From the IMG/VR virus record IMGVR_UViG_3300027763_002462, positions 1 through 64,000 of that record: a stretch of 64,000 bases of DNA; one strand, given 5' to 3'. Below the pieces are notes generated by a model. The model searched no databases. It worked only from the letters and a program-made list of their open reading frames with translations, and had not been told where the DNA came from. Source of the DNA: a virus. Shown piece after piece: positions 1 through 59,796 of this stretch; positions within the stretch are counted from its first letter, which is position 1; each line of letters starts with the position of its first letter. The position numbers and the translations under genes are program-made.

Positions 1-3000
1 CCATCTATTCCTGAAGTTCCGCTTGAACCATCTGTACCATTAGAACCTGAAGTTCCTGAAGAACCATCTGTTCCGTTGCTACCACTAGTTCCTGAAGAAC
101 CGTCTGTTCCATTACTACCACTTGTTCCTGAAGAACCATCTGTTCCATTTGAACCAGAAGTTCCTGAGCTACCATCTATACCACTAGTTCCTGAAGAACC
201 GTCTGTACCATTGCTACCACTAGTTCCTGAAGAACCGTCTGTACCATTGCTACCACTAGTTCCTGAAGAACCGTCTATTCCACTAGTTCCTGAGCTGCCA
301 TCCGTTCCGTTTGAGCCAGATGTTCCTGAAGAGCCATCTGTACCGTTAGAGCCACTAGTTCCTGAAGAACCATCTGTTCCGTTTGAACCTGAAGTTCCTG
401 ATGAACCGTCTGTACCATTACTTCCTGAAGTTCCTGATGAACCGTCTGTTCCATTAGAACCTGAAGTTCCTGAAGAACCGTCTGTTCCATTACTTCCTGA
501 TGTTCCTGAAGAGCCATCTATTCCACTAGTTCCTGAGCTACCATCCGTTCCATTACTTCCTGATGTTCCTGAAGAGCCATCTGTTCCGTTTGAACCAGAA
601 GTTCCACTTGAACCGTCTGTTCCATTTGAGCCAGAAGTTCCTGAAGTACCATTAACACCACTAATACCTGAAGTTCCTGAAGAACCATCTATACCGCTAG
701 TTCCTGAGCTACCATCTGTACCATTAGAACCTGAAGTTCCTGAAGAACCGTCTATACCACTAGTTCCTGAGCTACCATCCGTTCCGTTTGAGCCAGAAGT
801 TCCTGAAGAACCATCTGTTCCGTTGCTACCGCTAGTTCCTGAGCTACCATCCGTTCCGTTTGAGCCAGAAGTTCCTGAAGAACCATCTGTTCCGTTGCTA
901 CCGCTAGTTCCTGAGCTACCATCTATTCCACTAGTTCCTGAAGAACCATCTGTTCCGTTGCTACCGCTAGTTCCTGAGCTACCATCTATTCCACTAGTTC
1001 CTGAGCTACCATCCGTTCCGTTTGAGCCAGAAGTTCCTGAAGAACCATCTGTTCCGTTTGAACCTGAAGTTCCTGATGAACCGTCTATTCCACTAGTTCC
1101 TGAGCTACCATCCGTTCCGTTTGAGCCAGAAGTTCCTGAAGAACCGTCTATTCCACTAGTTCCTGAAGAGCCATCTGTTCCATTAGAACCCGAAGTTCCT
1201 GAGCTACCATCCGTTCCGTTTGAGCCAGAAGTTCCTGAGCTACCATCCGTTCCGTTTGAGCCAGAAGTTCCTGAAGAACCGTCTATTCCACTAGTTCCTG
1301 AAGAGCCATCTGTTCCATTAGAACCCGAAGTTCCTGAGCTACCATCTATTCCACTAGTTCCTGAAGAACCATCTATTCCGCTAGTTCCTGAAGAGCCATC
1401 AGTTCCATTAGAACCTGAAGTTCCGCTTGAACCGTCTGTACCGTTGCTACCACTAGTTCCCGAAGAACCATCTATTCCACTAGTTCCTGAAGAGCCATCT
1501 GTTCCATTAGAACCCGAAGTTCCTGAGCTACCATCTATTCCACTAGTTCCTGAAGAACCATCAGTTCCATTAGAACCTGAAGTTCCCGAAGAACCATCTA
1601 TACCGCTAGTTCCCGAAGAACCATCTATACCTGAAGTTCCACTTGAACCGTCTGTTCCATTTGAACCAGAAGTTCCTGAGCTACCGTCTATTCCACTTGT
1701 TCCTGAAGAGCCGTCTGTTCCATTAGAACCTGAAGTTCCTGAACTACCATCTATTCCACTTGTTCCTGAAGAACCATCTGTTCCATTGCTACCGCTAGTT
1801 CCTGAGCTACCATCTATTCCACTAGTTCCTGAAGAACCATCTGTTCCATTGCTACCGCTAGTTCCTGAGCTACCATCTATACCTGAGGTTCCTGAAGAAC
1901 CATCCGTTCCATTAGACCCTGAAGTTCCACTTGAGCCGTCTATACCGCTAGTTCCTGAAGAACCATCTGTTCCATTGCTACCGCTAGTTCCTGAAGAACC
2001 ATCTATTCCACTAGTTCCTGAACTACCGTCTGTTCCGTTTGAGCCAGAAGTTCCTGAGCTACCATCTATTCCACTTGTTCCTGATGAACCATCTGTTCCT
2101 GAGGTACCCGAACTACCATCTATACCGCTAGTTCCTGAAGAACCATCTGTTCCATTACTACCGCTAGTTCCTGAAGAACCATCTGTTCCATTACTACCAC
2201 TAGTTCCTGAGCTACCATCTGTTCCGTTGCTACCGCTAGTTCCTGAAGAACCGTCTGTACCATTAGAACCTGAAGTTCCACTTGAACCATCTATTCCACT
2301 AGTTCCTGAACTACCATCTGTTCCGTTACTACCACTAGTTCCTGAAGAACCATCTGTTCCGTTAGAACCTGAAGTTCCACTTGAACCATCTATTCCACTA
2401 GTCCCTGAACTACCATCTGTACCATTTGAACCTGAAGTTCCTGAAGAACCGTCTGTTCCGTTACTACCACTAGTTCCTGAAGAACCATCTGTACCATTAG
2501 AACCTGAAGTTCCACTTGAACCGTCTGTTCCGTTTGAACCAGAAGTTCCTGAGCTACCATCTATTCCACTTGTTCCTGATGAACCTGATGTTCCACTAGT
2601 TCCTCCTGTTATTACTACGGTAATGTTTCCACTACCATTATTTACTACCGATGCTCCACTGAATGTAATTCCTGAAACGGAAGTAACTGTTGTTGTTCCG
2701 TCTCCAACGGATAAGGCTGAGCCAGACCCTGAAGTTATACCTGTAATTGATACTACACTACCGTCACTATTATTAAGAGATAACGTTGAGGTACCACTGT
2801 TATATGTTCCTCCCGTTACTGTTCCTGTAAATCCTGTAACAGTTACAGTGGCTCCATAATTGTCGTATAATTGTAATGTAGTTGTTGCTGAAAAATATGT
2901 ACCTCCTGTAATAACAGTATCGTTCATATTCGCAACTTTCCATCTCGCATTTTCTCTTGTAACACCACTAACACCTTCAATAGTCGAACCTGTCCACGCA

Positions 3001-3449
3001 TTTAAAAACGCGGCTCCCGCTACAGTACTGTCTTCACATGTCCATCCAAATCCATCAAATCCAAGAGCTCCTGAAATTTGTGCAGCATCCCATAATGCAG
3101 CATAACCATCAATAATATATTGATATGTGGTATCCGCAGATATAACATATACCATCATACCTAAACGTCTTCTACCTGAAGATATTTCATCACTATTAAG
3201 TGTTAAAACATTTGGAAATTCATTTGGTGCATTATAATTGAATGCGATAGGTATAGTATTCCCACTATACAAAATTTGACCCGAGCTTCCCTCAGGTATT
3301 GTATAGTTTAAATTTTGGTGCGAGTAAACTTCCATATACCCACCTATAGAGTATACACTGAAGTTTGTACCATTACTGTTATCAAGAGAAACGCCGATTG
3401 GTCCTTCGTTGATAGTTCCTGCTATTGGATTTTGATAGTTAAAGCTCAT
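1..3449 (-). CDS. Giant collagen-like (G-X-Y) tail fibre protein, 3' end beyond window
   Basis: The minus-strand frame starting at the ATG at 3449 (MSFNYQNPIAGT) stays open to the window edge, so at least 1149 residues are seen and the C-terminus is missing. Residues 1 to about 280 form a non-repetitive head with beta-type repeats of the kind TGGTYNSGTSTLSL. From about position 2608 down to 1 every third residue is glycine (units such as GTSGSNGTDGSSG), giving over 860 residues of uninterrupted G-X-Y with X/Y drawn mainly from T, S, N, D and I. Collagen-like stretches occur in phage fibres and form trimeric rods. Proline and lysine are nearly absent from the repeat, unlike animal collagen. 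It is the last visible gene of the fibre cluster, 16 bases after the Thr/Pro-rich gene and without its own TATTTAT motif, so probably co-transcribed with it. The fibre role is inferred from fold and location. Confidence 0.88.
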   Translation of the reverse strand, partial: MSFNYQNPIAGTINEGPIGVSLDNSNGTNFSVYSIGGYMEVYSHQNLNYTIPEGSSGQILYSGNTIPIAFNYNAPNEFPNVLTLNSDEISSGRRRLGMMVYVISADTTYQYIIDGYAALWDAAQISGALGFDGFGWTCEDSTVAGAAFLNAWTGSTIEGVSGVTRENARWKVANMNDTVITGGTYFSATTTLQLYDNYGATVTVTGFTGTVTGGTYNSGTSTLSLNNSDGSVVSITGITSGSGSALSVGDGTTTVTSVSGITFSGASVVNNGSGNITVVITGGTSGTSGSSGTSGIDGSSGTSGSNGTDGSSGTSGSNGTDGSSGTSGSNGTDGSSGTSGSNGTDGSSGTSGIDGSSGTSGSNGTDGSSGTSGSNGTDGSSGTSGIDGSSGTSGSNGTDGSSGTSGSNGTDGSSGTSGSNGTDGSSGTSGSNGTDGSSGTSGIDGSSGTSGTDGSSGTSGIDGSSGTSGSNGTDGSSGTSGIDGSSGTSGSNGTDGSSGTSGIDGSSGTSGSNGTDGSSGTSGIDGSSGTSGSNGTDGSSGTSGIDGSSGTSGSNGTDGSSGTSGIDGSSGTSGSNGTDGSSGTSGIDGSSGTSGSNGTDGSSGTSGIDGSSGTSGIDGSSGTSGSNGTDGSSGTSGIDGSSGTSGSNGTDGSSGTSGIDGSSGTSGSNGTDGSSGTSGSNGTDGSSGTSGIDGSSGTSGIDGSSGTSGSNGTDGSSGTSGIDGSSGTSGSNGTDGSSGTSGSNGTDGSSGTSGSNGTDGSSGTSGIDGSSGTSGSNGTDGSSGTSGIDGSSGTSGSNGTDGSSGTSGSNGTDGSSGTSGIDGSSGTSGSNGTDGSSGTSGIDGSSGTSGSNGTDGSSGTSGSNGTDGSSGTSGSNGTDGSSGTSGSNGTDGSSGTSGIDGSSGTSGSNGTDGSSGTSGIDGSSGTSGISGVNGTSGTSGSNGTDGSSGTSGSNGTDGSSGTSGSNGTDGSSGTSGIDGSSGTSGSNGTDGSSGTSGSNGTDGSSGTSGSNGTDGSSGTSGSNGTDGSSGTSGSNGTDGSSGTSGSNGTDGSSGTSGIDGSSGTSGSNGTDGSSGTSGSNGTDGSSGTSGIDGSSGTSGSNGTDGSSGTSGSNGTDGSSGTSGSNGTDGSSGTSGSNGTDGSSGTSGID

Positions 3450-29894: not shown

Positions 29895-30177
29895 TTTCTA
29901 TTCTTTTAATGTTTGGTAATTTATTCTGTTTTGGTCCTTTATAAAATGTTTCGTCTTGTTCATACAAAACTCCAACTTCTTCTTCGTGAAAAGTGATTAG
30001 ACTAAATGTCATTTGACCATTGTCGTCTACTTCTTTCATCATACCAAACAAAACTGTATCACCAATTTCTTTACTTCTACCTGAGAAGTAATTTTTATCT
30101 TTAAGTTGACTTAGGAATTCATAAGACAGCGTTTTATTGTCTTTCAACTGTAAGTCAATTTCTTCTTTAAATGTCAT
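29884..30177 (-). CDS. Small protein preceding uvsX, unknown
   Basis: 97 residues, beginning [21 protein letters not shown] short helical N-terminus is followed by beta-rich sequence ([35 protein letters not shown]) and a basic C-terminus ([18 protein letters not shown]), suggesting a small mixed-fold protein. It overlaps the HNH gene by 11 bases at its start and uvsX by 11 bases at its end. T4-like phages encode a UvsY mediator that loads UvsX (137 residues in T4), but I see no sequence match, and the position alone is weak evidence. No enzymatic motif recognised. Confidence 0.55.
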
Positions 30178-30715
30178 GTGTTTTATTTTTTAAACTTTGA
30201 TAAAAATTCAGATGTTTTTCTTTTGTGTCAAGTAACTCGTCTTTTTTTGTTTTGTATACCATTAATTCAGGAACATAAGTTAAATGTCGATGTAAAAAAT
30301 TATGTTCTTGAATAGATAATTGAACTATGTCTAACCAATCTTCTTGATTATATGACCAATGATGTAGATGAAATCCTTGTATTTTTGTTAAATAAAGTTC
30401 TGTATATCTAGACGCCATATATTTTTCAGGAAACTTCTGTCGATATTTCTTCATTGTTTCTCTTTTCTTTTCTGTCGATGGATTAAAGAGTCCTTTATAA
30501 TTCAATCTATAATACTTTTCTCTATTTCTTTCTCGTTCTTTTTCTATCCACTCTGGATTGTTTTTTAATTCAATCTCTCTTGTCCTAACATCAATTTTTG
30601 TACACTCTTTACATTTACCTAAATAACCATCAGCCATTTCTTTATGTTTATAAAAATGCGTGATTGGTAATATTTTGTTACATTTGAAACATTTTTTTTC
30701 TGTAATTTCCTCCAT
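30167..30715 (-). CDS. HNH-type endonuclease-like zinc protein
   Basis: 182 residues. The N-terminus has a treble-clef-like zinc knuckle ([16 protein letters not shown] then GYLGKCKEC), common at the front of phage HNH proteins. The middle is a long basic helix ([33 protein letters not shown]). The C-terminal half contains [14 protein letters not shown] and [10 protein letters not shown], resembling the H-H...N...H layout of HNH nucleases. Such genes are often homing endonucleases between essential genes, and this one separates gp32 from uvsX. It has its own TATTTAT motif, set inside an 11-base-pair inverted repeat that abuts the ATG. Nuclease activity is likely but the central Asn of the motif is not certain by eye. 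Confidence 0.7.
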
Positions 30716-55321: not shown

Positions 55322-57073
55322 ATGGACGCTAGTTTAGAATCAAAGGCATTGTCTCTCTTGGAGGTTTATGAAGGAGGAAATAACTACCTTATTGAACTTA
55401 AAAGAAAGTCTCAAATAAATAGGAGGTTTTACCCTACAAGGAGTCAGGCTGAGTATATTATTAATAACCATAACAAACAACCAAAGGTTGCAAAAAAATG
55501 GGTAATACTTGACGCATATTTCGCACAGAAACTTGCTGACGATAAACTTATGACCGAAATACCTGAAAAAATTTGGGTAGAAAAGTTATTGGCAGATAAA
55601 GAAAAAGCGTTTCACATTTGGGGTAAGATAACCGAATCGGAACAACTACATGATTTTTGGTTGCCCAAAGCGGCAATCATAAAAGACAACACGGTTAAAA
55701 ACGTTGTAATAAACTATGAAAAATATTCTCACCGTCCTCCTCTTGAACATCAAAAAGAATCTATTCAAAAATTGGTTGAAAATAAAAAATTCATACTTGC
55801 AGATGATATGGGTCTTGGAAAGACTACTTCTACTATTATAGCGGCATTAGAATCAGGGTCCAAGAAAGTATTAATTATTTGTCCAGCAACTTTAAAAATT
55901 AACTGGAAAAGAGAGATTGAAAACTATTCAGATAAGGCAGTTTATATTGCTGAAGGTAAAAACTTTAGTACGGATGCTGACTTTGTAATAATAAATTATG
56001 ATATTATAAAAAATTTCCATGATACAAAAAAGAAAGGTGAATCGCAAATTCTTGATGCCAATTTTGATTTGGTGGTCGTTGATGAAGCGCACTATATTAA
56101 AAACGCTACAGCCCAAAGAACAAAACTAATTAACGACCTTGTTAAGAAGGTGGACCGACTTTGGTTATTGACGGGTACTCCGATGACCTCTCGACCAATT
56201 GATTACTTCAACTTATTAAGTTTGATTGAATCCCCTGTTGCGAAGAATTGGATGGCGTATGCTATCAGATACTGTCAGGGATACCAATTCAACGTCGGAG
56301 GCAGAAAGGTGTGGAATGTTATGGGGGCGTCTAATCTTGAGGAATTAAGAGACAGAACCGCAGGTCTTACATTAAGAAGACTTAAAGAAAACGTACTTGA
56401 CCTTCCTGACAAAATAATCACACCAGTATATCTTAGATTAAAGTCTAAAATGTATGAGGAGATTATGGGAGAATATTACGATTGGTATGACAAAAATCCA
56501 GAGGAATCAAAATCTCTTACAGTTCAATTCACCAAGTTAACAAAGATACGTCAGGTTATCGCAGATGAAAAAGTTTCACAGACAATAGAACTTGCAGAAA
56601 ACATTGTTGAACAAGGGAAAAAAGTAATTATCTTCTGTAACTTTACAGATTCACTTAATAAAATTTGCGAACATTTTGGTAAATCCGCAGTTAAAATAAA
56701 CGGCTCAATGTCTAAACCTGAAAGACAACACAGTGTAGACAGTTTCCAAGAAAACGATAAAATAAAAATACTTGTCGGTAATATAAAAGCCGCTGGGGTT
56801 GGTATAACTTTAACGGCAGCTGAAGCGGTTATTATGAACGACCTATCATTTTTACCATCCGACCACGCCCAAGCAGAAGACCGAGCTTATAGATACGGTC
56901 AAAAAAACAATGTATTAGTTTATTACCCCATATTCGAAAACACAATCGAAGGAATTATCTACGACATATTAAACAATAAAAAACAAGTGATTGCCACAGT
57001 TATGGGGGACAATCAAAATACGGCCGATGCTGCCGAAGAAATTTTGAAGAGAATTAATGAAATGCGTCGTTAA
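55322..57073 (+). CDS. SNF2-family (SMARCAL1-like) DNA helicase/translocase, UvsW-like role
   Basis: 583 residues, almost the size of T4 UvsW (587), but with SNF2-type motifs: LEHQKESIQKLVENKKFILA (Q region), DDMGLGKTT at about 161-169 (motif I), VVVDEAHYIKN at about 250-260 (DEAH), LLTGTPMTSRPIDYFNLLSL (motif III), and in lobe 2 KINGSMSKPERQHSVDSFQE, NIKAAGVGITLTAAEAVI and DRAYRYGQKNNVLVYYP (motifs IV-VI). The N-terminal 135 residues resemble the HARP-like front of SMARCAL1 proteins. Such enzymes rewind or remodel forked DNA, matching the branch-migration job of UvsW. It is the first gene of the plus-strand block, divergent from the gp14-position gene, and is followed by the superoxide dismutase fusion. 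The start is the first in-frame ATG. Confidence 0.88.
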   Translation: MDASLESKALSLLEVYEGGNNYLIELKRKSQINRRFYPTRSQAEYIINNHNKQPKVAKKWVILDAYFAQKLADDKLMTEIPEKIWVEKLLADKEKAFHIWGKITESEQLHDFWLPKAAIIKDNTVKNVVINYEKYSHRPPLEHQKESIQKLVENKKFILADDMGLGKTTSTIIAALESGSKKVLIICPATLKINWKREIENYSDKAVYIAEGKNFSTDADFVIINYDIIKNFHDTKKKGESQILDANFDLVVVDEAHYIKNATAQRTKLINDLVKKVDRLWLLTGTPMTSRPIDYFNLLSLIESPVAKNWMAYAIRYCQGYQFNVGGRKVWNVMGASNLEELRDRTAGLTLRRLKENVLDLPDKIITPVYLRLKSKMYEEIMGEYYDWYDKNPEESKSLTVQFTKLTKIRQVIADEKVSQTIELAENIVEQGKKVIIFCNFTDSLNKICEHFGKSAVKINGSMSKPERQHSVDSFQENDKIKILVGNIKAAGVGITLTAAEAVIMNDLSFLPSDHAQAEDRAYRYGQKNNVLVYYPIFENTIEGIIYDILNNKKQVIATVMGDNQNTADAAEEILKRINEMRR

Positions 57074-57081
57074 AGAAAATC

Positions 57082-57110
57082 TGGATTATTTATATGAAAT
57101 GGATAATCCA
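57082..57110. repeat. 8-bp inverted repeat around the SOD-fusion promoter motif
   Basis: TGGATTAT (57082-57089) and ATAATCCA (57103-57110) flank a 13-base spacer and enclose the TATTTAT motif, ending 5 bases before the ATG. It is similar in plan to the repeat before the HNH gene, and could be an operator or a start-site hairpin. Confidence 0.55.
57087..57093 (+). promoter_or_regulatory. TATTTAT motif before the SOD-nuclease fusion
   Basis: ATTATTTATATGAAA in coding orientation on the plus strand, 22 bases before the ATG at 57116, showing that the motif follows gene direction on both strands. Confidence 0.5.
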
Positions 57111-57115
57111 AAAAT

Positions 57116-58654
57116 ATGAAAAAAATAGAAGAGAAAATCCAACAACTCGAAACACAAATACTTGAAAACCACATCACAAAAGAAAAAGAGTTGTTGATTA
57201 ACGAAATGAAAAAAATAGGAATAGAAAAATTACCCTATTCTTACTCAGCCCTGAAACAGTTTATTGACCCCGAGACAATGAACTTTCACTATAACAAACA
57301 TTATAAGGGATATGTGGATAAATTGAATGACGCTTTAAATAAAAAGAAATACGGGGATTTAGAGTTAGAACAAATAATCAAAACAATAAGTCGTTTTGAT
57401 AAGACAATAAGAAACAACGCAGGAGGAGCATTTAACCACGCATTGTTTTGGAATATGTTAACACCAACTCCAAAGAAATTAGAAGGAGAATTACTTAAAA
57501 AAATCACAAAACAATTCGGAAGTTTCACTGCGTTCAAGAAACAATTTGATACTGTTGCCAAAGATAGATTCGGTTCAGGGTGGGTATGGTTAGTCCTTAC
57601 TGCCAAGAACACATTAAAGATTATGTCGACTCCAAATCAAGACAATCCTTTAATGAATGTGATTGAAGGTGGTGGGTTTCCAATATTAGGATTAGACTTA
57701 TGGGAACACGCTTATTACTTAAAGTATAGAAACAAGAGAGACGAATATATTGTTAACTTTTGGAAAGTTGTAAATTGGGAATTTGTTTCCAAGTTATACG
57801 AAATGAAAACGGAAACTAAATTAGTAGAATCCGTTAAGTTAGAGAAGTTGATTACAGAATCTAAAGAGGCGAAGTTCTGTGACGCCAAGGAAGTTCAATT
57901 CTACAGAGAACTTATTAATAATTCAAACATTAAGAGAATATACCAAGACGGAGTAACTAATGCTTTAAAAGAAGTGTTTAGTCAATTTTGGGTTGATAGT
58001 ACAAATAAAGAAATGTCAGGGTTTTATGGATTAGAGTCTAAAGAAGGAAGGTCTATTTTAAATAACCTAAACACAAACTTCAACACGTTTTGTTTATTAA
58101 CCAAAGCAATTAATACTCAAATTGAAAAAATAGGTAGACCTGAAAAGAAATTTAATTTTTCTAAAAAAGAAAATAGAACCATTAAAGAAATTAACAGATT
58201 AATGAATGCGTTGTATCATTTCAAAACAGAAATATTCACAAAAAACAACGAGGAGTTTATTAACATAATTAAAGTGTTAAAAAAATTGTGGGATAGAGGA
58301 CAAAAATCTGAAGATGATGTTTTAATTAAAATTGAAAAATATTTTGGGGATTCCGCAAAACTTGAAAAGACTGGAGGACATGGTCAAAAAACCGATGCTC
58401 TCCTTGGTGTTGATTTAACAATTACTTTAAATGAAACAAAATATACCGCTCAGGTTAAACCATTTTCAAGAATAATAAAAGAAGATGGGAAAATTACTGT
58501 AAAAGATACAGGAAATGTTAAACCGTACGACGTTGATTGGTTGATATTTATTAATACAAAATCAAACGAAATTTTGATTTTTGAAAACAACCCGATTAAA
58601 AATCATAATCAATATGTGTTTAATGAGAGTTCATTAATTCATAAAATAGAATAG
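57116..58654 (+). CDS. Mn-type superoxide dismutase fused to a PD-(D/E)XK-like domain
   Basis: 512 residues. Residues 1-38 are a charged coiled-coil-like leader. Residues about 39-229 are an intact Fe/Mn superoxide dismutase: MNFHYNKHYKGYVDKLN (ligand His58, gateway His62), NNAGGAFNHALFWN (ligand His108), FGSGWVWLV, STPNQDNPL (Gln175, Mn-type position), and GLDLWEHAYY (ligands Asp194, His198). The NQD..L..G motif makes Mn or cambialistic use more likely than strict Fe. Residues 230-512 are not SOD: helical to about 410, then KSEDDVLIKIEKYFG, GGHGQKTDALLGVDLTITLN and YTAQVKPFSR, an E...D...QxK pattern like PD-(D/E)XK nucleases. Normal SODs are about 200 residues. It stands between helicase and neck genes under a late-type motif. 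Possibly it detoxifies superoxide and also processes or binds DNA. Confidence 0.9.
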   Translation: MKKIEEKIQQLETQILENHITKEKELLINEMKKIGIEKLPYSYSALKQFIDPETMNFHYNKHYKGYVDKLNDALNKKKYGDLELEQIIKTISRFDKTIRNNAGGAFNHALFWNMLTPTPKKLEGELLKKITKQFGSFTAFKKQFDTVAKDRFGSGWVWLVLTAKNTLKIMSTPNQDNPLMNVIEGGGFPILGLDLWEHAYYLKYRNKRDEYIVNFWKVVNWEFVSKLYEMKTETKLVESVKLEKLITESKEAKFCDAKEVQFYRELINNSNIKRIYQDGVTNALKEVFSQFWVDSTNKEMSGFYGLESKEGRSILNNLNTNFNTFCLLTKAINTQIEKIGRPEKKFNFSKKENRTIKEINRLMNALYHFKTEIFTKNNEEFINIIKVLKKLWDRGQKSEDDVLIKIEKYFGDSAKLEKTGGHGQKTDALLGVDLTITLNETKYTAQVKPFSRIIKEDGKITVKDTGNVKPYDVDWLIFINTKSNEILIFENNPIKNHNQYVFNESSLIHKIE

Positions 58655-58671: not shown

Positions 58672-59796
58672 ATGGCAGTATTACCAGAACCAGAAAGAAG
58701 TAGGATATATACGAGAATCAAACATCAGTTAGGTGCACCACTAAGAAGTGTTGAACTTGAAGATGAGATGATGGATTCGTTAATGGAATTAGCAATTGGG
58801 GATTACGAAGAGTATATCCTACAATGGTTAATTGATTCTCAATGGGTTAACTTAGTTAACTTGAATATGAATGAAAGGTCTGTTGCAAGAGCGTTAGTTA
58901 CAAGAACTATGGATTTTGAACAACAGTTTAGTTACGCATATTCTAAAATTGTAGGTCTTCAAACTGAAGGTCCTTGGGTTTTAAAGAAAGATTATTTCGT
59001 TCTTGAGAAGAATGTTCAAACATATGAAATTCCTGCGGGTAGAGAAGTTAATGAACTATTATGGTTTAGTGACCAACCTTGGACTGCGTTTGGAATTGGT
59101 GGAATGGCTGGTGGTTTTGGTGGTATCGGATTAGGTGCCGACCAAGCTGGATTTGCTCAAATGGGTAATCAAGGTTCTTATTTTATGATGTCAGGTTTTG
59201 ATTATTTAATCAGAATGCAAGAAGCCAATATTCTTAATAGAATTTTAGGTGGTTCGATGACTTATAGAATTACAGGTTTACCTGATGGTAAAAAGTTAAT
59301 TCACTTAATGAATACCCCTGGTGGTAAATTTAATTGGTCAAGTTATAGTCAATACGTTGGTAAAGCCGTATGGTATTGGTATTATGATGTTGAACCCGAT
59401 AGTAGAGCCGATTGTCTCAAAAACAATCCTGATATTATTAAATTACCGACAGATGTTCCAATCGAATCTCTTAGTTGGGAGGACTTAAACGTTCCTGGTC
59501 AACAATGGGTGAGAAGATGGTTTACTGCCTATTGTAAAGAAACTTTGGCAAGAGTTAGAGGTAAGTATAGTGGTAACTTAAAAACACCTGATTCTGAAAT
59601 CGTAATGGATTATCAGAGTTTACTTACTGAGGCTAAAGACGAAAAGACCAAATTAATAGATGAACTAACAGGAGCTGAAGGATGGTTGACAAGAATGAGA
59701 CCCGATAAAGTAATGGAACGAGAAGCATTAATTGCAGAAAACTTGAACAAACAAATGAAGTTCAGAGCAATGCCTCGTCAAATATATGTAATTTAA
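58672..59796 (+). CDS. Neck protein, T4 gp13-like
   Basis: 374 residues (T4 gp13 309). The N-terminus MAVLPEPERSRIYTRIKHQL is followed by a helical part, then GPWVLKKDYFVLEKNVQTYE and IPAGREVNELLWFSDQPW. The C-terminal helix block (WVRRWFTAYCKETLARVRGK, YSGNLKTPDSEIVMDYQSLL, AKDEKTKLIDELTGAEGWL) closely fits the gp13/neck family of T4-like and cyanophage genomes. A Gly/Met-rich insertion lies in the middle (GIGGMAGGFGGIGLGADQAG), probably a flexible loop. The protein closes the head after packaging and connects it to the tail. It is separated from its gp14/gp15-like partners by the helicase and SOD genes and lies on the opposite strand, a rearrangement compared with T4. Confidence 0.8.
   Translation: MAVLPEPERSRIYTRIKHQLGAPLRSVELEDEMMDSLMELAIGDYEEYILQWLIDSQWVNLVNLNMNERSVARALVTRTMDFEQQFSYAYSKIVGLQTEGPWVLKKDYFVLEKNVQTYEIPAGREVNELLWFSDQPWTAFGIGGMAGGFGGIGLGADQAGFAQMGNQGSYFMMSGFDYLIRMQEANILNRILGGSMTYRITGLPDGKKLIHLMNTPGGKFNWSSYSQYVGKAVWYWYYDVEPDSRADCLKNNPDIIKLPTDVPIESLSWEDLNVPGQQWVRRWFTAYCKETLARVRGKYSGNLKTPDSEIVMDYQSLLTEAKDEKTKLIDELTGAEGWLTRMRPDKVMEREALIAENLNKQMKFRAMPRQIYVI

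Follow-up and report, generated by a model that had tools for sequence, protein, structure and literature searches.

The stretch of viral DNA analysed here, hereafter the window, comprises 64,000 nt (positions 1 to 64,000 of IMG/VR record IMGVR_UViG_3300027763_002462). Between a helicase gene and a neck gene it encodes a protein in which a superoxide dismutase (SOD) is followed, in the same open frame, by a module that very probably has a nuclease-type fold (Table 1). Also listed in the table are three short sites that may be recognized by a prohead protease and a motif of late type upstream of the start codon.

Table 1. The SOD-nuclease locus and its immediate neighbours; positions are those of the window.
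Feature	Position	Strand	Basis or remark
SOD-nuclease fusion open reading frame	57116-58654	+	ATG start, 512 aa plus stop, single open frame
N-terminal helical extension, residues 1-35	57116..57220	+	Pfam SOD match starts only at residue 36
I28-N-E30, candidate prohead-protease site ahead of SOD	57197..57205	+	[LI]xE30 in 66/66 distinct homologues
Fe/Mn SOD domain, residues 36-226	57221..57793	+	Pfam and solved-structure sequence matches
M230, end of SOD similarity	57803..57805	+	M in 65/66; aligns with the initiator Met of nuclease genes that stand alone
L236-V-E238, candidate prohead-protease site behind SOD	57821..57829	+	LxE[ST] in 66/66
I246-T-E248, candidate cleavage site ahead of nuclease module	57851..57859	+	[LI]xE in 66/66
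Helical part of nuclease module, residues 249-380	57860..58255	+	Predicted models
PD-(D/E)XK-like domain, residues 381-512	58256..58651	+	Fold comparison; active-site conservation
E399 of RGQKSE	58310..58312	+	Invariant
D433 of GVDL	58412..58414	+	Invariant
Q446-V-K448	58451..58459	+	Q and K invariant
TATTTAT late-type motif	57087..57093	+	29 nt 5' of ATG; present in 49/49 distinct fused upstreams
SNF2-type DNA helicase gene, upstream neighbour	55322..57073	+	phrog_62, E 1.4e-115
Neck gene (head-tail adaptor Ad2), downstream neighbour	58672..59796	+	PHROG phrog_211, E 1e-9

The two parts almost certainly constitute a genuine single-chain fusion. At least 592 relatives were found in a scan of viral contigs; the best 80, which were retained, all matched residues 1-512, and merging the scans left 66 distinct full-length fusions. 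When loci were fetched by their neck gene, 75 of 80 carried the fusion, one carried two genes, three carried the nuclease without a SOD, and one had no sequence in range. Among 40 fusions of less than 97% identity, the SOD segment was the most uniform (mean pairwise identity 0.886, median dN/dS 0.04), with corresponding values of 0.653 and 0.23 for the linker (residues 227-256), 0.698 and 0.13 for residues 257-380, and 0.664 and 0.16 for residues 381-512.

The SOD core, described as complete in an earlier note made from the letters of the window, proved to be so. Both Pfam domains were matched well above their gathering scores: Sod_Fe_N (PF00081) over residues 36-115 (E 6.5e-22; 78.3 bits against 27) and Sod_Fe_C (PF02777) over residues 123-226 (E 4.5e-40; 136.3 bits against 20.9). 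The four metal ligands H58, H108, D194 and H198, together with Q175 of the NQD motif, were identical in all 66 distinct homologues, and the VNW motif occupies residues 219-221 of the window protein. A sequence search of solved structures with the fusion returned SODs as its top matches, many of them named Mn; G104 and Q175, mapped to E. coli SOD numbering, likewise suggest a Mn-type enzyme. Of 271 bacterial relatives, the best 80 were 46-57% identical to the SOD, and 70 of these 80 bore Bacteroidota names in their titles. Judged by sequence, the SOD is Bacteroidota-like, of predicted Mn type, and attached to the front of the nuclease module. It has in common with Bacteroidota Fe/Mn SODs (SodFM) the same two domains, the four ligands, and the Mn-type second-shell residues, but the fusion differs from them in its 35-residue N-terminal extension and in the nuclease module on its C-terminus. 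SODs and other genes concerned with reactive oxygen species (ROS) are known from freshwater phages, according to PMC6802176. Phage PA5oct and Vibrio phage 2.275.O also encode an Fe/Mn SOD, 29-31% identical to the fusion over the SOD; these are, however, free-standing genes, and a profile search found no match to the nuclease module in either genome.

Sequence comparison alone placed the C-terminal module in no known enzyme family. Residues 234-512, searched separately, matched no Pfam or NCBIfam family at curated cut-offs; no Hjc family appeared in either collection at E values up to 1, no Mrr family was among the Pfam or NCBIfam matches of the C-terminal part, and no solved structure matched the module by sequence at E values up to 10. 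Its RGxxxE stretch does resemble Hjc, and its QxK resembles that of Mrr-type nucleases. Weak and uninformative matches were found to phrog_5018, a family of unassigned function (best E 7.9e-5; 23 of 30 members). In PADLOC, no defence system matched the fusion, its C-terminal part, or the relative in a 735-kb phage described below, and the relative in a 635-kb phage gave a single weak match (E 0.043).

Conservation and predicted structure were more informative. E399, D433, Q446 and K448 were identical in 66 of 66 distinct fusions. When three fused and seven free-standing members were aligned, at identities reaching down to 18%, the only invariants of the nuclease half were G395, E399, G431, D433, Q446 and K448; since these four residues and two glycines alone persist across ten such divergent members, we read the active site as kept. 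A model of residues 249-512 had a mean pLDDT of 83.6, and the C-terminus of a full-chain model was also usable. Compared by VIA-align, residues 395-511 of the full model resembled a SPARDA nuclease (Z 7.6), NhoI (6.9), an archaeal Hjc (6.8) and I-Ssp6803I (6.6); the first 19 rows (Z 5.1-7.6) were all restriction, homing, Holliday-junction, SPARDA or MepB entries, and with the C-terminal model the same kinds of enzyme filled the first 23 rows (Z 3.6-6.0), ahead of unrelated ones. This ranking speaks for the families listed in VIA, and unlisted families may fit as well. Hjc, NhoI, I-Ssp6803I, the SPARDA nuclease, DpnI and MepB are members of the PD-(D/E)XK superfamily. The module shares with them its predicted core fold (Z 4.4-7.6) and the E, D, QxK set, and departs from them in having no sequence-family match and an additional helical domain some 130 residues long.

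Some results count against so definite an assignment. A plain Foldseek search against the PDB gave no match at E 0.001 (the best, I-Ssp6803I, reached 0.015), and every VIA Z-score was below 8, so that support from the fold for PD-(D/E)XK membership is moderate. The SOD half of the full-chain model was poor, with pLDDT mostly below 50, presumably owing to a shallow alignment. Fold and conservation together nevertheless support a nuclease, with DNA cleavage as a predicted activity. The nuclease-like domain proposed in the earlier note is thus upheld: in the fold search that the note had called for, PD-(D/E)XK enzymes lead, and a fold devoid of a nuclease-like active site was not what emerged.

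The module has relatives outside the fusions. A search of predicted viral structures gave two standout matches, a 1113-aa marine phage protein and A0A6J5L953 (BFVD/UniProt; 501 aa), which an uncultured Caudovirales phage encodes and which is entered as 'superoxide dismutase'. The latter, named in the database for its SOD only, is apparently a distant protein of the same kind as the fusion, a likeness judged from 260 matched columns of the module at 30% identity. The 735-kb GenBank phage LR756501 encodes a free-standing homologue of 290 aa, aligned from module residue 4 (hhalign probability 97%, E 5e-11), and its record contains no PF02777 match. In the 635-kb phage LR745206.1, a 251-aa protein (L361:2488-3243) is related to the nuclease part (profile E 1.8e-5; hhalign 94% over 63 columns). 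Pattern-based searches recovered no close relative of these two huge-phage proteins from viral contigs and, among 73 pattern matches in bacterial genome contigs, no relative of the module.

In scans seeded from the fusion the nuclease seemed never to occur without the SOD: the C-terminal part had matches at 249 loci (overlapping; 68 distinct tails), and all were fused. That generalization was wrong because of the seeding, and it was overturned by the neck-gene scan and by a scan with a SOD-less nuclease. The latter yielded 15 loci: 13 had no SOD in the available sequence, one (L469) had only 108 bases upstream, and one was split. Of the three SOD-less loci found through the neck gene, one (L459) lies on a contig that begins just upstream of the nuclease. 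No SOD was found in any of the six SOD-less records searched, one of them 309 kb long, although the records may be fragments. In the split contig (L475/L457), the SOD has its own stop and is followed after 65 bases by a nuclease with its own ATG; all ten residues checked in this SOD were present. Because it also ends ...KLYEMKIETKINNLKK, the stretch around M230 may already belong to the SOD side and not be purely a relic start codon, despite its alignment with the start methionine of the free-standing genes.

The alleles have evidently moved between lineages. In a midpoint-rooted neck-gene tree of 64 rows, six SOD-less rows formed a deep, separate clade; a further SOD-less row, like that of the split contig, fell within the fused clade. 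L468 and L474 have neck proteins that are 67% identical and nucleases that are 91% identical, whereas L468 and the window agree at 87% in the neck protein and at 34% in the nuclease. From these discordant identities we infer that the nuclease allele was swapped between clades, sometimes with removal of the SOD. What stays constant at the locus is the nuclease, to which the SOD is a separable addition. The bifunctional protein foreseen in the earlier note stands insofar as a SOD core and a nuclease-like domain occupy one chain; an obligatory bifunctional enzyme is unlikely, given the SOD-less alleles at the same locus and the occurrence of SOD and nuclease as two genes in one contig. No evidence was found to support another suggestion of that note, that cutting is controlled by redox state or metal, and the fusion may possibly shield virions or DNA against oxidation.

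The surroundings of the fusion were highly regular. Wherever the contig left room, the neck gene lay directly 3' (79 of 79 loci), in agreement with the expectation that the fusion is placed with virion genes; of the 67 loci that extended far enough 5', 64 had the end of the SNF2 helicase gene within 400 nt and the other three at 0.7-0.9 kb. In three loci with a SOD-less nuclease (L458, L460 and L468), the helicase gene upstream was interrupted by a long insert, intein-like by eye, and the spanning frame starts GLGKAEFVENKVFTPYGRKRIGDLEIGDEVIGSDGKK.

The late-type motif that had been pointed out ahead of the window gene recurs. TATTTAT preceded 21 of 86 genes in the window's record (1.2 expected), mostly genes that look structural by eye, and 97 of 389 genes in a relative, G001 (9.6 expected). 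In G001 a second element, TAnnTTTG, preceded 55 of 389 genes (26.4 expected); the promoter consensus of Bacteroidota is given as TTTG/TAnnTTTG in PMC6847099. The two elements divided the alleles: all 49 distinct upstream regions of fused genes had TATTTAT and none had TAnnTTTG, whereas among eight distinct upstream regions of unfused nucleases, one of them from the split contig, all eight had TAnnTTTG (with TTG or TTTG at a suitable distance in seven) and two had TATTTAT. The SOD of the split contig retains TATTTAT upstream. From these motifs, the fused genes would be late and the SOD-less alleles early. A scan for sigma-70 promoters returned matches at chance level only. In the window's record TATTTAT often stands just 11 nt before an ATG (e.g. 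58661, 63395, 70263 and 107677), so that transcripts would have hardly any leader were it to act as a promoter element. The carriers are large freshwater T4-like phages, with records of up to 326 kb, and their hosts are probably Bacteroidota, to which both the TAnnTTTG element and the Bacteroidota names of 70 of the 80 best bacterial SODs are suited.

A feature that the earlier note did not mention concerns the borders of the SOD. Fifteen glutamates are invariant in the 66 fusions, and only E30, E238 and E248 have L or I two places before them in every one. These [LI]xE sites flank the SOD and suggest that two proteins may be released from the chain by cleavage in the head. The T4 protease gp21 recognizes L/I-X-E, and T4 internal proteins carry targeting propeptides of 10-19 residues in which residues 4, 7, 8 and 10 matter; foreign proteins, one of them a nuclease, have been loaded into T4 heads by means of targeting signals (PMC9026906). 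In the fusion, residues 239-248 are hydrophobic at positions 4, 7 and 8 and end in E at position 10 in all 66 sequences. The 7-mer hydrophobic-x-x-hydrophobic-[LI]-x-E, which resembles a capsid targeting sequence (CTS), is fully conserved only at residue 248 (66 of 66; the next, at 510, in 33 of 66).

Signs of a T4-like head maturation pathway were found in the relatives. A gp21-type (Peptidase_S77) gene was present above cut-off in seven of seven related records, all selected for carrying the fusion. In two records of the clade, the major capsid protein has FLINE60 followed by A61 (counted by hand) at the place of a gp23-type propeptide, which in T4 comprises 65 residues (PMC5694885). In G001, the first 40 residues contain tandem [LI]xE sites in 34 of 339 proteins, where shuffled sequences gave 12.5 +/- 3.3; among its 239 proteins of at least 145 aa, such sites lie at the N-terminus in 25, in a stretch of the interior in 10 and within the C-terminal 40 residues in 16. 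The positions of [LI]xE in G001 peak at residues 7 and 9 (21 and 17 of 391 open reading frames, against 5.8), and the CTS-like 7-mer is enriched near N-termini (27 of 339, against 11.2 +/- 3.0). A recurrent N-terminal peptide of rough form M-x5/6-[LI]TE[SN]-x-L... was also seen in this genome (L380:11866-12732, L381:8275-8736, L382:17449-17814 and L375:3879-4346), followed some 12 residues later by another [LI]xE or VxE, in proteins that look unrelated; it is possibly a clade-wide head-targeting tag. The nuclease relative in LR745206 starts MKKFTEYIKE, followed by S, and so resembles a T4-like targeting sequence of 10 residues. The PA5oct SOD begins MNDSIKKYISIAE, followed by A, a CTS-like stretch of the form ...IAE before A. 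Its gene (MK797984.1 EST35_0261; L362:3956-4504) is annotated as a hypothetical protein, with ESI-MS/MS in the GenBank CDS note, and PMC6950013 mentions a structural proteomics analysis of PA5oct.

Several observations tell against packaging. No gp21 match was found in the window's record; the record ends inside the capsid gene, however, and this absence says little, since the control genomes for Peptidase_S77 gave no match either. The gp21-type matches in the two huge phages stay below cut-off. Near N-termini, the CTS-like 7-mer was not enriched in the window's record (4 of 87, against 2.7 +/- 1.6), not clearly enriched in a stretch of G004 (1 of 18, against 0.6 +/- 0.8), and only weakly so in part of LR745206 (6 of 85, against 3.1 +/- 1.7). 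Unfused alleles keep the glutamate, but the L/I context survives in only three of eight distinct ones, so the glutamate may be conserved for another reason; the loss also fits early alleles that do not need a signal. L or I stands two places before a conserved glutamate in 4 of 17 cases, modestly above other residues (K 4 of 31, N 5 of 26). Moreover, [LI]xE is a short motif, the test of the sites was devised after they had been seen, and the E248 site is internal to the chain, unlike a T4 CTS, which stands at the N-terminus. With the L/I context kept in three of eight unfused alleles, the uneven enrichment of the 7-mer, and the sub-cut-off gp21 of the huge phages, we regard packaging in the head and cleavage by the prohead protease as evenly balanced between true and false.

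Were it true, the reconstructed order of events would be as follows. The fusion would be made late and enter the prohead core, where a phage protease of gp21 type would cut after E30, E238 and E248, leaving two products in the head: residues 31-238 as the mature SOD (about 208 residues) and residues 249-512 as the nuclease (264 residues). Both would then enter the next host with the phage DNA; once injected, the nuclease would cleave the host's DNA or that of competitors, and the task of the SOD would be to clear superoxide, either during infection or within the particle. The SOD-less alleles would reach the same end without packaging, through early transcription from a host-type promoter. Taken as a whole, from late synthesis through packaging and cleavage to injection, this mechanism seems to us slightly more doubtful than not. 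The further proposal, of a packaged SOD-nuclease precursor with an internal targeting and cleavage stretch and co-injected products, to which the SOD-less, host-promoter allele is an interchangeable alternative, is advanced tentatively, and we would sooner doubt than accept it in full.

Other explanations dispense with packaging. The enzyme may be late and cytoplasmic, with an Hjc-like nuclease and the SNF2 helicase resolving branched DNA, much as endonuclease VII does in T4, and the SOD shielding replicating or packaging DNA from superoxide. Holliday-junction resolvases are indeed among the best fold matches, the helicase gene adjoins in 64 of 67 loci, the late motif lies upstream of the fused genes, RuvC was found in none of seven records, and Endonuclease_7 exceeded its cut-off in none of six (one match below cut-off in G003; none above in the control genomes). 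We consider a resolvase unlikely, however, as the window has its own HNH/endonuclease VII-like gene (30167-30715, minus strand; phrog_1035, E 3.2e-8; phrog_2340, E 7.8e-10), the swapping of alleles recorded in the contrast between L468 and the window would be odd for a housekeeping enzyme, the unfused alleles bear host-type promoter elements in eight of eight cases, and the [LI]xE sites are left without explanation.

Those three invariant sites are equally unaccounted for if the nuclease, never packaged, acts in the infected cell on the DNA of the host or of competing phages, with the SOD as an auxiliary metabolic gene whose product protects the host as it dies and which the fusion places on a late transcript. 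The host-type element upstream of all eight distinct unfused alleles would suit such an enzyme, as would the exchange of nuclease alleles between clades, which conflict would predict, and the SOD and ROS genes of freshwater phages noted above (PMC6802176). The fused genes, on the other hand, combine the late motif (49 of 49) with absence of the host-type element (0 of 49), which is late for the breakdown of host DNA, and we judge this account to be quite unlikely.

It is more improbable still that the SOD is catalytically normal while the nuclease fold is inactive and serves only as a binding or structural part of head or neck. The constant adjacency of the neck gene (79 of 79 loci with room), the VIA Z-scores below 8, and the Q that replaces the common E of ExK could be read in that sense, but E399, D433, Q446, K448 and two glycines would then hardly be expected as the sole invariants of the nuclease half in ten sequences down to 18% identity. 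Finally, the joining of two genes by an assembly error or frameshift, for which the split contig might be cited, can be dismissed with near certainty, as the same fusion recurs in 66 distinct sequences and, in one frame, at 75 of 80 neck-gene loci, with a linker whose median dN/dS is 0.23.

Two further features were noted by eye. At 3-3449 (minus strand) the window encodes a tail-fibre-like protein with a very long GTSGSNGTDGSS repeat, and an overlapping plus-strand frame is likewise open for 952 codons. Around L183:18006-18809, and through the surrounding 63-94 kb of the record, many genes resembling those for glycosyltransferases and sugar metabolism form a long cluster, together with an open reading frame like that of an NAD synthetase.

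Among the closest known systems are also the internal proteins of T4 (IPI, IPII, IPIII and Alt), which the fusion resembles in its [LI]xE sites, 10-residue spacing, hydrophobic pattern and late motif; as in T4, a gp21-type protease is encoded, by relatives of the window phage. The fusion differs in that its putative signal is found not just close to the N-terminus but also within the chain. To our knowledge, the T4 internal proteins are neither SODs nor nucleases. In the titles and abstract openings of the papers on phage SODs that were listed, we found neither a SOD-nuclease fusion nor a packaged phage SOD. Each part of the fusion is thus of a known kind, while the architecture, the split and SOD-less alleles, and the switch of promoter are new to us.

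Phage SODs are usually classed as auxiliary metabolic genes; the fusion locus links one to a nuclease, to a neck-gene operon, and to prohead-protease motifs. Its fused, split and SOD-less alleles, all at one syntenic position, are natural controls: because related phages carry the parts separately or lack the SOD, the role of each part can be tested. The locus thereby makes testable whether antioxidant enzymes occur inside phage heads, why a phage should keep a DNase beside its genome, and whether one and the same enzyme can be delivered either by packaging or by early transcription.

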